Assembly: GCA_024653485.1 (NCBI GenBank)
Contig: JANLFY010000018.1
Location: 1-53,641, forward strand
Length of the DNA stretch: 53,641 bases
Reading direction: 5' to 3'
Source: Bacillota bacterium
GTDB taxonomy: Bacteria; Bacillota; SHA-98; UBA4971
Shown here: positions 4,705-53,641 of the stretch, one piece after another
How positions within the stretch are numbered: position 1 is the first letter of the stretch
How the letters are laid out: each line of letters starts with the position of its first letter
The notes under the pieces: model-generated
Told to the model about the DNA's origin: nothing
Seen by the model: only the letters and a program-made list of their open reading frames with translations
Database searches by the model: none
Position numbers and translations under genes: made by a program

Positions 4705-5468
4705 TATGGCGGAAAACTTCAGTAGGGGGTGGAGGGCTGCGGTCTCAAAGCGACGCGGCCCCTTGTGAGGTGGATGAAAGAGAGATAACCCGGACTGCTG
4801 AAGATGAACTCGCAGCCTCCACAATGGAAGAAGGCCCGGGGATCGTGCCACAGTCGGAGCGGGCGGCCCGCGGTCCTGCCCAGGAGCAGGAGCCCGGCGA
4901 GGCGTCTGCGGAATTGGGAGGAGAATTCCCGGAGCCTGAGAACCCAAACAAGAAGTGGTACGTCATCCACACGTACTCGGGTTACGAGAACAAGGTGAAG
5001 GCGAACCTCGAACGGCGGGTCAAGACGATGGAGAAGGAAGACAAGATCTTCCGGGTGCTCGTTCCCACCGAAGAGGAGTACGAGTTCAAGGACGGCAAGA
5101 AGAAGGTAGTCAAGAAGAAGATCTTTCCGGGGTACGTGTTGGTTGAAATGGTGATGGAGGACGACTCCTGGTATGTCGTCCGGAATACCCCGGGCGTGAC
5201 CGGGTTTGTGGGGTCAGGTTCCAGGCCGGTCCCGCTCCAGGAAACGGAGATGCACGATATCCTCAGGCGCATCGGGGTCGAGGAGGCTCGTCCCAAGATC
5301 GACTTCTCGGTCGGGGAGGGCGTGAGGGTGATCTCCGGCCCGTTCCAGCACTTCTCCGGAATCATCGAGGAGATCCAGCCTGACAAGGGGAAGGCGCGGG
5401 TGCTCGTGTCGATGTTTGGGCGGGATACTCCCGTGGAGCTGGACTTCAGTCAGATAGAGAAGTTGTAG
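4701..5468 (+). CDS. nusG: Transcription termination/antitermination protein NusG
   Basis: NusG binds RNA polymerase through its NGN domain and links it to Rho or the ribosome through its KOW domain. The NGN domain begins at KKWYVIHTYSGYE near residue 84 and contains FPGYVLVEM and the NTPGVTGFVG signature. The KOW domain (GEGVRVISGPFQHFSGIIEEI) lies near residues 203-223 and the protein ends VELDFSQIEKL. The 255-residue frame leaves about 80 residues before the NGN domain, rich in Glu, Gly and Pro. The start is uncertain: GTG 4701, GTG 4770 and ATG 4824 are all in frame and none has a strong Shine-Dalgarno site. The core call is firm, the N-terminus is not. Confidence 0.93.
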   Translation: MIWRKTSVGGGGLRSQSDAAPCEVDEREITRTAEDELAASTMEEGPGIVPQSERAARGPAQEQEPGEASAELGGEFPEPENPNKKWYVIHTYSGYENKVKANLERRVKTMEKEDKIFRVLVPTEEEYEFKDGKKKVVKKKIFPGYVLVEMVMEDDSWYVVRNTPGVTGFVGSGSRPVPLQETEMHDILRRIGVEEARPKIDFSVGEGVRVISGPFQHFSGIIEEIQPDKGKARVLVSMFGRDTPVELDFSQIEKL

Positions 5469-49077: not shown

Positions 49078-49122
49078 TGCGGCCTGACGCAGGGCTTACG
49101 CTCCTCGCAGGAGGGATTGAGA

Positions 49123-50544
49123 GTGACAGGGGAAGGCCAGGTGGTTCTGTGTGCGCTTGCGCCGCATCCGCCTCTTCTCATTCCGGAGATCGGTTCCAGG
49201 CGCGATCTCGACGCCGTGAGGCAGACGATGAGCGCCATGAAAAGGCTGGCAGCCATCGTTAGGGACGCTCGGCCGGAAGTCGTGGTCGTAATAAGCCCGC
49301 ACTCGCCCCTCTTCGAGGATGCGGTGGCCATCCACGCTGCGAACCCTCTTGAGGGAGACTTCTCCATGTTCGCGGCGGGCGAGGTGAGCCTCTCGTTCGA
49401 AAACGACCTTGCGCTAGCGCGGGAGGTGGTAAGTCGCGCCCGCGCCATGGGCGTGTCCGCGCTCCTGCTCGATGAGCGGGGGCGACAAACCTACCGTGTG
49501 CAAGGCCGTCTGGATCACGGGGTTTTGGTTCCCATGCATTTCATCGCAGGAGCAGGGGTGAGTGTCCCGCTCGTCGTCATGGGCATGGCGCTCCTGCCTC
49601 GTGAGAAGCTCTACGCGTTCGGGGCGGCGGTGTCCCAAGCCGTCAGGACACTGGGGCGAAGGGCGGTGGTCGTAGCGAGCGGGGACTTGTCGCACCGGCT
49701 TACGCGCGGTGCGCCCGCGGGGTACGATCCTCGGGGCGCGGAGTTCGATGCTCGAATAGTAGACCTCCTCCGGGGAGGCGACGTTGACGGGATACTGTCT
49801 CTCGACGAATCGCTTGTGGACCGAGCCGGGGAGTGCGGGTACAGGTCACTCATCATTGCCCTCGGAACGCTCGAGGGTCGTGTCTTCGAGCCGGAGGTGT
49901 TGTCGTACGAGGGGCCGTTCGGTGTCGGGTACGCAGTCGCCGTTCTGCGTCCAGGCGAAGAGGTGGAGCAGAGGAGACTCCTCGACAAGCTGATCGCAGG
50001 GCGCAGGGAGGCGATGTCGAGGGCGAGAGAGGGGGAGAGCTCCCTGGTTCGTCTCGCGCGAAGGGCGGTTGAGGAGTACACGAGGAGCGGGCGAGTGATC
50101 GAGCCGCCCAAGGACCTGCCCGAGGAGATGCGTGGAAGGGCGGGGGTGTTCTGCTCCATCAAGAAAGCGGGGCAGCTTCGGGGGTGCATCGGGACGATCC
50201 GCCCCACGACGCGCTCCATTGCTGAAGAGGTAATAAGGAACGCCATCGCGGCCGCTACCGACGATCCTAGGTTCGTGCCGGTGGGGCCGGACGAATTGGA
50301 CGATCTCGTGTACTCCGTGGACGTTCTTACGCCGGCTGAGCGAATCGCTGGCATCGACCAGCTGGATCCCCGAATCTACGGGGTCATCGTCAAGAAAGGA
50401 CCGAGGAGCGGGCTTCTCCTTCCGGATCTCGAAGGGATCGAAGACGCCCGCGAGCAGGTGGAGATAGCGAAACGGAAGGCCGGTATACCGCGTGACGACG
50501 ATGACGTTGAGCTCTTCAGGTTCAGGGTCAAGAGGTACACGTGA
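49123..50544 (+). CDS. AmmeMemoRadiSam system: Memo-AMMECR1 fusion
   Basis: A 473-residue two-domain protein. The N-terminal part (about 5-280) is the class III extradiol-dioxygenase/Memo fold with ALAPHPPLLIPEIG, VVVISPHSPLFEDA and VVVASGDLSHRLTRGAPAGYDPRGAEFD. The C-terminal part (about 290-473) is AMMECR1, with GVFCSIKKAGQLRGCIGTIRPT and VKKGPRSGLLLPDLEG. The system couples with a radical SAM enzyme encoded next. Its biochemical product is not fixed by sequence. AGGAGGG (49109-49115) supports GTG 49123. The stop overlaps the next start. Confidence 0.93.
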   Translation: MTGEGQVVLCALAPHPPLLIPEIGSRRDLDAVRQTMSAMKRLAAIVRDARPEVVVVISPHSPLFEDAVAIHAANPLEGDFSMFAAGEVSLSFENDLALAREVVSRARAMGVSALLLDERGRQTYRVQGRLDHGVLVPMHFIAGAGVSVPLVVMGMALLPREKLYAFGAAVSQAVRTLGRRAVVVASGDLSHRLTRGAPAGYDPRGAEFDARIVDLLRGGDVDGILSLDESLVDRAGECGYRSLIIALGTLEGRVFEPEVLSYEGPFGVGYAVAVLRPGEEVEQRRLLDKLIAGRREAMSRAREGESSLVRLARRAVEEYTRSGRVIEPPKDLPEEMRGRAGVFCSIKKAGQLRGCIGTIRPTTRSIAEEVIRNAIAAATDDPRFVPVGPDELDDLVYSVDVLTPAERIAGIDQLDPRIYGVIVKKGPRSGLLLPDLEGIEDAREQVEIAKRKAGIPRDDDDVELFRFRVKRYT

Positions 50545-51611
50545 TGCGAGAGGCGTCATATTGGCAAGCGGAAGGAGAGACGGGCGCGGTCAAGTGCCTG
50601 CTCTGTCCTCAGTACTGCAGGATCAGGCCGGGCCGCGTCGGAGTGTGCCGTGCCCGCAAGAACATAGAGGGAAGGCTCTACTCTCTCGTGTACGGCGAGA
50701 TCACGTCCTTCGGGCTCGACCCGATCGAGAAGAAGCCGCTCTACCACTTCTATCCCGGGTGGGAGATCCTCTCTGTGGGCACGAGGGGCTGCAACCTTGC
50801 GTGTGGGTTCTGTCAGAATTGGCATATCTCTCAGGTGGACGCTCCCACCCAAGCCATCACACCCCAAGGGCTCGCTTCGGCGGCGACGGAACAGACGCGT
50901 CGAAGGCCATGCGTGGGCGTGGCGTACACTTACTCTGAGCCGCTGATTTGGTACGAGTTCGTGATTGACGCGGCGAAGCTCGTGCGCGAACGCGGGCTCA
51001 AGAACGTCCTCGTCACGAACGGAGAGATCAATGAAGACCCACTGGAAGAGCTGTTACCGCACATCGATGCCATGAACATTGACGTGAAGGCGTTCACCGA
51101 GTCGTTTTACGCAAAGATATGCCACGGCAAGCTGGCTCCAGTCCTCCGCACTGCGGAGCTCGCGAAAGCCGCCGGGTGTCACGTCGAGATCACGAACCTC
51201 ATCATTCCGCGCCACAACGACGATCCGGGCGAGATAGAGAGGCTGGCGCGTTGGGTGGCGTCATCGCTAGGAGACGATACGCCCTTGCACTTCTCCAGGT
51301 ACTTTCCGGCGTACGAGTTCAAGGAGCCCCCGACTCCCGTCGCCACGCTGCAATCGGCTGTCGAGACAGCCCGTAGAGTGCTCAAGTACGTTTACATGGG
51401 GAATGTGCCGGGAGGTCAGGGAAACGACACGCGATGCTACGAGTGCGGTGACACGCTCATCAAACGTGACGGGTTCAACGTTCTCGTGTATAGGCTGGAG
51501 GACGGCAAGTGCCCGACGTGCGGAGCGAAGATCCACGTCGTCGGCGCACCTCCGTCAGATGCGCGTCGGGGTGAAGACACATGGCTTCCGCCTCAGGAGG
51601 AAACCCGGTAA
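50541..51611 (+). CDS. amrS: AmmeMemoRadiSam system radical SAM enzyme
   Basis: A 356-residue radical SAM protein. The iron-sulfur motif CNLACGFC gives Cys84, Cys88 and Cys91. An N-terminal CLLCPQYCR...GVCR cluster (Cys19, Cys22, Cys26, Cys36) precedes it, and a C-terminal zinc-ribbon-like CYECG and CPTCG pair is near 298-335. Other features are GTRGCN and VTNGEINEDPLEELLPHIDAMNIDVKAF. GTG 50541 (or ATG 50544) overlaps the Memo-AMMECR1 stop, so the two are translationally coupled. Confidence 0.94.
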   Translation: MMREASYWQAEGETGAVKCLLCPQYCRIRPGRVGVCRARKNIEGRLYSLVYGEITSFGLDPIEKKPLYHFYPGWEILSVGTRGCNLACGFCQNWHISQVDAPTQAITPQGLASAATEQTRRRPCVGVAYTYSEPLIWYEFVIDAAKLVRERGLKNVLVTNGEINEDPLEELLPHIDAMNIDVKAFTESFYAKICHGKLAPVLRTAELAKAAGCHVEITNLIIPRHNDDPGEIERLARWVASSLGDDTPLHFSRYFPAYEFKEPPTPVATLQSAVETARRVLKYVYMGNVPGGQGNDTRCYECGDTLIKRDGFNVLVYRLEDGKCPTCGAKIHVVGAPPSDARRGEDTWLPPQEETR

Positions 51612-51796
51612 CCTTCTTCCTCAATGGCTTTCGCCATCTCTGCACGACTGGTCCTGGCGGGGTCGAACGTGACTTTCGCCGTCCCTGCCTCAAGGTTCAC
51701 TTGCGCTCGCCTCACACCGGGCACGCCAAGGAGCGCCCTCTCCACTGCCGCGCGGCAGTGGCCGCTTCTCTCGGCCTGTCACCGCGTCACGGCCAC
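51593..51796 (-). pseudogene. Decayed CopZ-like heavy-metal-binding protein
   Basis: On the minus strand a frame reads GHCRAAVERALLGVPGV, then NLEAGTAKVTFDP and AIEEEGYRV, clearly an HMA (copper-chaperone/CopZ) domain. A GTG at 51796 starts MAVTR, but TGA at 51781-51779 then stops the frame. Where the family has the metal motif MxCxxC only SGHC remains: the first cysteine and the methionine are missing. A gene of normal length (about 68 codons) has therefore lost its start segment and metal site. The 3' end overlaps amrS by 19 bases in antisense. A 20-bp perfect palindrome lies at 51732-51751. Confidence 0.7.
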
Positions 51797-51947: not shown

Positions 51948-52136
51948 CTACTCGATCTTTATGGCTTCCACGGGGCACGATTCCGCCGCATCGGCACAAC
52001 AAGGGAGACCTGGGCATTTCTCGGGGTGCACCGCATGCGCCTGGCCATCGTCTCCCATCTCGAACACGTCAGGGCATATCTCCACACACAGTCCACAGCC
52101 GATGCACAGGTTCTCGTCCACGGTAACTTGAGCCAC
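51948..52136 (-). CDS. Small ferredoxin
   Basis: A 62-residue ferredoxin. Cys11, Cys14 and Cys17 (CIGCGLC) and Cys54 in ESCPVEAI make a 4Fe-4S cluster site; Cys21 and the CPGLPCC cysteines are extra. This single-cluster type resembles Desulfovibrio/Thermotoga ferredoxins. The start is GTG 52136 and lacks a clear Shine-Dalgarno site. It probably carries electrons for metabolism or for radical SAM enzymes. It is convergent with amrS and has the same orientation as the CodY-like gene, 177 bases upstream. Confidence 0.9.
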   Translation of the reverse strand: MAQVTVDENLCIGCGLCVEICPDVFEMGDDGQAHAVHPEKCPGLPCCADAAESCPVEAIKIE

Positions 52137-52313: not shown

Positions 52314-53225
52314 CTATACACGAGCCGCCTGGTGCCCAAGAACCAAGCTCCTTCCTCTCGCGACCCTCCCTCTCCGTTTGCCGCCCTCGGCTGGATGGTG
52401 CGCCTTCCCTGAAGCTGTGGTAGCCGAGGCGCCGGCGTTGAGTCCCCGCAAGGCCTCTCGTCCGAGGCCTGTGTTATCGAGCTCCGCTCGGAGCTCTGGG
52501 TTGAGGATCCTGACGAAGGTGCCCTTCATTCCCAGGGACTTCGTCTTGACTAGGTCGGCGGAAGAGAGCTTTCGAAGGGCGTTGACCACCACCGAACGTG
52601 TCATGCTAGTGCTGTCTGCGATCCTGCTCGCCACCAGGAAACCTTGATCGCCATCGAGGGCGTCGACGATCGCGCGAACAGCCACCAGCTCTGAGTACGA
52701 CAGGTTTTGGACGGCCGATCTTGCGGCTCGTCGGTCCCTTGCGCGCTGATCCTCCTCCCGCCGGTGCGTGACGGCGAGTACCGCTCCAGCGGCCACGGCC
52801 AGCGGACCGAGCATGTCCAGGCAATCCCGAGAGCTCTCGACACTGGGCAGGGCGACCAGCAAACCGACGGTTTCCTGGAGCGCTGTCATCGGTGCGACCG
52901 CGTTCGTTCTGCCGTTCACGGTGATCGCTGCAGCTTGCTTCCCTGCGACCGCCGCCCAGAGCGACGCCAATGTGCGGGGGGCGAGGACGTCTCCCAAGCG
53001 CCAGTCATCGTCATGCGCCCCAGCGGACTGTCCATCTGACCCTCCTGATCCTTCACGGCCGACCACGACTGAATCGCCGGCGACGCGCCCGTTGGTGTCC
53101 ACAAATAAGACTCGGACCCCGTTGAGGAGCTTGCTGACAATGGAGCAAACTCCGCTGCCCGTCGAGCCAGGTTGGCTCCGCTGAAGTATCTCCATCATGC
53201 CCTTGAGTGCCTGCCGGCACTTCAT
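52314..53225 (-). CDS. CodY-like transcriptional regulator (divergent)
   Basis: A 303-residue protein. Residues about 175-245 (LSYSELVAVRAIVDALDGDQGFLVASRIADSTSMTRSVVVNALRKL and SLGMKGTFVRILN) match the winged-helix DNA-binding domain of CodY, which represses genes of nitrogen and carbon metabolism when branched-chain amino acids and GTP are high. The N-terminal 150 residues have only weak resemblance to the CodY GAF domain and include a Gly/Ser/Asp-rich stretch. There is also a 55-residue C-terminal tail. AGAGGGGGCATCAAC precedes ATG 53225 on the minus strand. Ligand and targets are unknown. Confidence 0.85.
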   Translation of the reverse strand: MKCRQALKGMMEILQRSQPGSTGSGVCSIVSKLLNGVRVLFVDTNGRVAGDSVVVGREGSGGSDGQSAGAHDDDWRLGDVLAPRTLASLWAAVAGKQAAAITVNGRTNAVAPMTALQETVGLLVALPSVESSRDCLDMLGPLAVAAGAVLAVTHRREEDQRARDRRAARSAVQNLSYSELVAVRAIVDALDGDQGFLVASRIADSTSMTRSVVVNALRKLSSADLVKTKSLGMKGTFVRILNPELRAELDNTGLGREALRGLNAGASATTASGKAHHPAEGGKRRGRVARGRSLVLGHQAARV

Positions 53226-53493: not shown

Positions 53494-53542
53494 ACGGTCC
53501 CAACCGACCACGAGCAGGACAAGTGTCCACATTTCCGCACAT

Positions 53543-53571
53543 ATTGTACGACACAGATGATCAATTGTCAA
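53543..53571 (-). promoter_or_regulatory. Promoter for the CodY-like gene
   Basis: On the minus strand TTGACA (53571-53566), 17 bases, TACAAT (53548-53543). It is close to consensus and points toward the CodY-like gene, giving a long structured leader from about 53535 to 53226. I see no supported protein gene in that leader. Confidence 0.75.
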
Positions 53572-53598: not shown

Positions 53599-53641
53599 TG
53601 TGATAATGTCACCCTGTAAGCGGTCTGAGAAAATGTCACCC
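53599..53641. mobile_element. Possible end of an IS21-type insertion sequence
   Basis: AATGTCACCC occurs at 53605-53614 and again at 53632-53641, within TGTGATAATGTCACC and GAGAAAATGTCACC contexts. Repeated motifs of this kind are found at the ends of IS21-family elements in clostridia-like genomes. The window stops here, so no transposase can be seen and the call is tentative. Confidence 0.35.

Follow-up and report, generated by a model that had tools for sequence, protein, structure and literature searches.

The window, a whole contig of 53,641 nucleotides (C18, one of the 41 contigs of genome G000), carries on its reverse strand a gene for a CodY-family protein, CodY being the textbook example of nutrient regulation in Gram-positive bacteria, together with the genes and signals listed in Table 1. 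The start position is the same in five orthologues, which have ATG or GTG followed by K/T-C. The ferredoxin and Memo/AMMECR1 neighbours named in an earlier, sequence-only reading of this DNA are real, Memo and AMMECR1 being parts of one fused gene.

Table 1. Features of the codY-copy locus, in window coordinates
Feature	Position	Strand	Remarks
LigB(MEMO)-AMMECR1, one fused gene (context)	49117..50544	(+)	Convergent to the codY copy
Radical SAM enzyme (context)	50541..51611	(+)	Convergent to the codY copy
Ferredoxin, Fer4_13 (context)	51948..52136	(-)	Occurs in the sister genus too, with no codY copy
CodY paralogue of 303 aa, on the short-GAF side	52314..53225	(-)	ATG 53225, stop at 52314
Residues 251-303, low-complexity tail	52317..52475	(-)	pLDDT < 50 from residue 265; dN/dS 0.31-1.14
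Residues 151-250, linker helix and CodY winged HTH	52476..52775	(-)	PF08222, contact residues, dN/dS 0.07-0.19
Residues 1-150, diverged GAF, most GTP/BCAA residues gone	52776..53225	(-)	hhalign, residue table, AF2
Residues 53-79, variable loop, predicted disordered	52989..53069	(-)	pLDDT < 50; length differs between orthologues
Inverted repeat TGTSC-N8-GRACA, candidate operator	53524..53541	(-)	Directly after the -10
-10 TACAAT	53543..53548	(-)	5/6 (TAAAAT in G002); 17-base spacer in the window
-35 TTGACA	53566..53571	(-)	Identical in 6/6 orthologues, upstream alignment

The CodY-type DNA-binding domain claimed in that reading is borne out by a match of HTH_CodY (PF08222) to residues 194-250 of the window protein (E 5e-19, 68.1 bits, cut-off 27), and by the contact residues described below; the model is matched by 6/6 members of the window group, that is, the window protein and its orthologues. 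The claim that the N-terminal ligand domain is highly diverged also holds, as the classical ligand residues are lost (see below) and the CodY GAF model (PF06018) gives no match in the window protein up to E 10, nor in any of the six window-group members at E 1. Thus no classical CodY GAF domain with conserved ligand residues was clearly matched. The scores of the window protein against the NCBIfam CodY equivalogs lie below the cut-offs (133.4 of 255 bits for NF003170 and 118.2 of 267.2 bits for TIGR02787), and in a phmmer search of PDB sequences the significant matches were CodY chains only, aligned from residue 110 or later. The extra tail, first put at 55 residues, is present and by our count comprises 53 residues after residue ~250.

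A second, classical codY, for which the earlier reading had proposed a search, was found on contig C3. It is the sole PF06018 match in the window's genome (182 bits) and adjoins a gene read by motif as hslU. A search of the same genome with the HTH model returned two genes only, the window gene and the C3 codY. Two CodY-family genes are present in 6/6 genomes of the genus, the second having been read in the window's genome and assigned by score in the other five.

Relationship to classical and short-GAF CodY

The distribution of the paralogue was followed with a profile built from the alignment of six window-group orthologues. Among the 17 genomes of the class searched, the paralogue is present in 6/6 genomes of the genus, at 486-549 bits, and in 0/11 of the others, each of which gives one match of 104-130 bits, a score typical of classical CodY. 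The orthologues are 51-64% identical, and their presence in all six genomes of the genus allowed us to dismiss a chance open reading frame. Across the phylum, 331/398 genomes match the profile; outside the genus, 14 stand out at 145-184 bits, the next best of the 398 scoring 141. These 14 genomes, all from one other class, carry a CodY with a shorter GAF domain. PF06018 is matched by all 14 short-GAF CodYs (34-100 bits), and the NCBIfam CodY models match the 13 that were read. A similarity search of genome contigs with the window protein alone returned one Lachnospiraceae CodY only.

When the alignment of the 13 short CodYs was used as a model, 62 of the 72 genomes of their class scored at least 278 bits (the 13 are included in the 62 and the rest were judged by score), one genome (G444) scored 259, and further copies scored at most 252, the classical level. 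The short gene is the single PF06018 gene in 10/14 short-GAF genomes, and in family f56 two matches, one of each score level, are found in 7/9 genomes. At 14/14 loci (L109-L122) the short-GAF codY adjoins dinB and/or hflX; one of each was confirmed in Pfam and the others were named by motif. One of the 14 short genomes, G375, is absent from the tree, alignments and residue counts, and its dinB neighbour is counted here. At 0/6 loci does the window gene lie beside dinB or hflX, and the window's genome has a dinB to which the codY copy is not adjacent. The proximity of short-GAF codY to genes for a translesion polymerase (dinB) and a GTPase (hflX) hints at a connection to DNA damage or ribosome stress. 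We found no description of a short-GAF CodY in the literature searched, which took in few subscription papers.

Two CodY relatives were also seen in viral catalogues. An IMG/VR contig of 175 kb (L126) encodes a CodY relative with a short N-terminal half, and a 13-kb viral-catalogue contig (L129) has a 97-aa open frame comprising little beyond the CodY HTH.

Maximum-likelihood trees, which are unrooted, place the window group away from classical CodY. In the 50-row tree, classical CodY is split from the short-GAF type plus the window group with support 100/99, the short row L060 lying next to the classical clade on an unsupported branch (82/43). A second tree of 47 rows, which leaves out the long rows L056, L081 and L023, recovers the classical clade at 100/100, with the window group and the short rows outside. 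The short-type rows, both here and in the residue table, were taken as whole stop-to-stop frames, and some include residues upstream of the start. The branch to the window group is very long (2.7-3.2 substitutions per site), two to three rows were flagged for their composition, and a long-branch warning was given; because of this branch length, the composition flags and the meeting of long branches, the exact place of the window group on the short side is unsure. Diagnostic alignment columns point the same way as the trees, with nine common to the window group and the short type and three common to the window group and classical CodY (the x rows L065 and L081 were excluded from these columns and from the residue counts). 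The row L081 (also L123; G182, contig C111) is a further case of a diverged second CodY. It has a long branch, on the classical side of the tree, and a classical codY next to hslU is present in the same genome.

Comparison of N-terminal profiles by hhalign links the window group to the short type at 96.3% (E 1.9e-9, 140 columns) and the short type to classical CodY at 99.9%; the direct comparison of the window group with classical CodY gives 38.4% (E 3.3e-4). Given this chain of profiles, the N-terminal half is most likely a remodelled CodY GAF domain, and a foreign domain was rejected on the strength of the linkage through short-GAF CodY. Attachment of an unrelated N-terminal domain to the CodY HTH could account for the 0/6 matches to PF06018 and for the low direct hhalign value; with the short-GAF link in between, and with secondary-structure elements in the AF2 model following the same order as in CodY, we consider it highly improbable.

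The AF2 model built with four CodY rows has a mean pLDDT of 69, with the loop at residues 53-79 and the tail at residues 265-303 below 50. It aligns with CodY over residues 1-255 (the nine best Z scores are 17.4-15.1, for a model that was built using CodY rows), and ranks 1-20 in Foldseek are CodY; beyond CodY, the structure searches matched generic GAF or HTH domains. The GAF part of the model scores Z 12.3 against the CodY GAF domain (2gx5), tied with some other GAF domains (12.0-12.5), and prediction without relatives in the alignment gives a pLDDT of 43; the model therefore supports the fold weakly.

Sensor and DNA-contact residues

We compared ligand and DNA-contact positions in 29 classical, 13 short and six window-group rows. 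Residue numbering and roles follow the S. aureus and E. faecalis CodY structures as given in the accessible part of PMC10415144, and the list of branched-chain amino acid (BCAA) pocket residues is that quoted in the accessible part of PMC9318921. Glu153, which reads guanine, is present in 27/29 classical rows and in none of the short (0/13) or window-group (0/6) rows. Other positions are kept by most or many short rows and by none of the window group: Phe24 (25/29 classical; 8/13 short, with Tyr in three more; 0/6), Lys or Arg at 44 (at least 22/29; 11/13; 0/6), Arg122 (29/29; 13/13; 0/6) and Glu144 (29/29; 12/13; 0/6). The T96-V97 segment is deleted in 13/13 short rows and in 6/6 of the window group. 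In the window protein, the GTP motif residues F24, S43-R44-R45, K47 and E153 are replaced by G, D-T-N, R (a conservative change) and V, respectively, and F71, P72 and Y75 of the BCAA pocket by L, A and T, with F98 and P99 falling within the deleted segment (T96-P99). On the short-GAF side, the ligand switch appears to have disappeared stepwise.

According to the accessible part of PMC10415144, Gln replaces Glu153 in E. faecalis CodY, Leu alone promotes DNA binding and Leu is bound in the GAF pocket. The loss of Glu153 in the window group fits GTP independence, given that the E. faecalis protein is activated by Leu alone; E. faecalis CodY, which likewise lacks the guanine-reading residue, yet binds Leu in its GAF pocket. 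With most of the GTP- and BCAA-reading parts lost, the window protein probably responds to a different signal, if it responds at all; sensing of another ligand, as the earlier reading proposed, is plausible, and loss of sensing fits equally.

We gave no weight to the loss of Arg61, since there are classical rows without Arg61 too. The classical CodYs read (e.g. L001:1255-2040) lack Arg61, and Cys occupies the Thr96 column in 21/29 of them, with further cysteines nearby; their BCAA pocket may therefore differ from that of Bacilli.

On the DNA-binding side, S180, Y181, S182, A203, T213, S215, V216, V218, R222, G236 and M237 are kept in 6/6 of the window group, and S204 and T240 in 5/6; the window protein itself has every checked DNA-contact residue of the list taken from the accessible part of PMC10415144. 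The same source describes stacking of Tyr181 and Phe241 across CodY dimers, and both positions are retained as Tyr and Phe in the window protein. Among the dimer residues, R8 and E144 are altered in 6/6 and T148 in 4/6 of the window group, so dimerisation could differ. These findings bear on the possibility that the window protein acts as an anti-CodY, a ligand-blind partner that would form heterodimers with classical CodY or take one of two overlapping sites and so tune its regulon. The retention of DNA-contact and cross-dimer stacking residues by a protein that has lost its sensor would suit such a role, as would the two CodY-family genes in 6/6 genomes of the genus (the second mostly judged by score); the differences at R8, E144 and T148 in the GAF-helix interface speak against it, and we regard it as decidedly unlikely.

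Rates of substitution were estimated by the Nei-Gojobori method for five orthologue pairs, all with G004. The dN/dS is 0.25-0.35 in the GAF domain (0.23-0.47 in the GAF core), 0.07-0.19 in the linker and HTH, and 0.31-1.14 in the tail. The GAF and HTH domains are under purifying selection and the tail is near-neutral; the latter, together with its predicted disorder, ruled out the tail as a conserved domain. A paralogue decaying towards a pseudogene, to which the very long branch and the almost neutral evolution of the tail might point, is very unlikely given an open frame in 6/6 genomes, a dN/dS well below 1 in both domains and a conserved promoter.

Purifying selection on the GAF core would also be expected if this domain had gained a new small-molecule or redox ligand, in the sensing of which C3 and C27, two cysteines invariant in 6/6 of the window group, could take part. 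Against such a regulator stand the strong rearrangement of the pocket side (the T96-P99 deletion and the variable, disordered loop) and the sister-genus loci in which the redox neighbours occur with no codY copy (see below), and the selection on the GAF domain may act on dimerisation alone; on balance we find this reading rather unlikely.

The window protein thus resembles classical CodY (PF06018 plus PF08222, as in B. subtilis, S. aureus and the C3 copy) in the order GAF, long linker helix and winged HTH, in its checked contact residues and in the whole-length fold match of the AF2 model. It differs from classical CodY in the missing PF06018 match, the sub-threshold NCBIfam scores and the other locus, in the absence of E153 and most GTP-motif residues, in the deleted pocket segment, and in the disordered loop and the 53-residue tail. 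With short-GAF CodY it shares, besides the T96-V97 deletion and the lack of E153, Trp at Sa65, Ala-Arg at Sa172-173 and Arg at 205 and 250; unlike short-GAF CodY, it additionally lacks R122, E144, the GGG turn and basic residues at 44-45, its gene is not beside dinB or hflX, and its branch has the length given above.

CodY paralogues and a CodY-like protein with a diverged GAF domain are already known. The accessible part of PMC3412718 describes CodZ of Lactococcus lactis, encoded by a codY paralogue beside codY, and the window gene is likewise a codY paralogue present in addition to codY, a likeness drawn from that description. The Synergistetes CodY-like protein, in the accessible part of PMC9318921, has a conserved HTH and a diverged GAF domain without the key BCAA residues F40 and F71; its gene lies in a putative xerC-led operon, and binding to CodY-box-like DNA is reported for the protein of one species. 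The window protein resembles it, by description, in the conserved HTH and diverged GAF domain.

Genomic setting and proposed role

The sequence-only reading had taken the neighbours of the codY copy to suggest a link with redox or metal biology. In the sister genus, both of the loci read (G007 and G009, from seven genomes) have a small gene and the ferredoxin, radical SAM and MEMO/AMMECR1 genes contiguous without the codY copy or the GH18 gene, and we rejected a redox or metal regulator because this neighbour set stands without it. In the genus of the window, the codY copy and a divergent GH18 gene lie between the ferredoxin and the small gene, followed by alanine dehydrogenase and argC (the names hslU, argC, argJ, alanine dehydrogenase, SIS and amidase come from motif reading, with no family search). 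The ferredoxin was found by motif at 4/6 loci of the genus; the G004 contig stops short of it, and the motif gave no hit in G003. The small gene next to GH18 has no Pfam match and is "outer-membrane-like" by reading only. A GH18 orthologue (78-100% identity) is present in the same six of the 17 class genomes as the codY copy, and in the window's genome the GH18 side resumes where contig C4 begins.

From this gene order, the codY copy and the divergent GH18 gene look to have been inserted as a pair, which would make the GH18 gene the likeliest target nearby. G016 (L192, contig C8, ~4978-5311, reverse strand), from a different family of the class, carries broken GH18 fragments that are 54-59% identical to the GH18 of the genus; no codY match was found in the 10 kb surrounding them (tblastn, E 1e-3). 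The pair may owe its distribution to horizontal transfer or to loss in other genomes.

Upstream of the codY copy, a block of 78 alignment columns contains 34 invariant columns and 56 with at least 5/6 alike, and outside it 10 of 111 ungapped columns are invariant. The -35, the -10 and the inverted repeat (53524-53571) all fall within this block. The inverted repeat after the -10 is perfect in G001, G003 and G004 and has one arm altered in the window, G005 and G002; it may be an autoregulatory operator. No significant CodY box was found upstream, the best candidates having 5-6 mismatches and being equalled in 11-55 of 100 shuffles. The inverted-repeat pattern, made from the six sites, has no exact match beyond the codY-copy locus in the six genomes, and no regulon therefore follows from it. 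Three sites with one mismatch were found, two in G004 and one in G000. With up to two mismatches (exact sites included), G000, G001 and G002 have 8, 14 and 13 sites versus 11, 9 and 10 for the reversed control. The corresponding numbers in G003, G004 and G005 are 17, 25 and 18 versus 5, 4 and 9.

The reading that we put first, tentatively and at a little less than even confidence, is that the window gene encodes a diverged CodY-family DNA binder from the short-GAF side, freed from the GTP/BCAA switch and working beside a normal CodY. The protein would dimerise via its linker helices and recognition helices and would read A/T-rich, shape-defined operators of the CodY type without the GTP/BCAA switch, its binding being either constitutive or gated by another signal taken up by the remodelled GAF domain. 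Operators could be shared with, or competed for by, classical CodY. The likeliest local target would be the promoter region that separates the codY copy from the divergent GH18 glycosidase gene, and the protein would also regulate its own gene.

A broader picture, possible if on balance doubtful, is that CodY comprises two families, the GTP/BCAA sensor and a short-GAF type that is spread through one class of the phylum, is tied to dinB/hflX and lacks the known means of reading guanine. The window gene would be the most extreme offshoot of the second, uncoupled from nutrients, which arrived with GH18 and shares operators with the normal CodY. The database models that match CodY relatives label them GTP sensors; a whole subfamily without the guanine-reading residue and part of the amino-acid pocket counsels caution in transferring the GTP/BCAA label. 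As at least one genus has both kinds of CodY, ligand-free CodY function could be tested directly in one organism.

Two minor features of the window were also recorded. The contig end at 53600-53641, TGATAATGTCACC...GAAAATGTCACCC, reads like the end of an insertion sequence, and synteny resumes at the start of contig C4. At ~51590-51770 on the reverse strand lies a remnant of an HMA metal-chaperone gene, whose matching frame is interrupted by a stop ahead of the MSCNHC motif present there in G005, G001 and G002.
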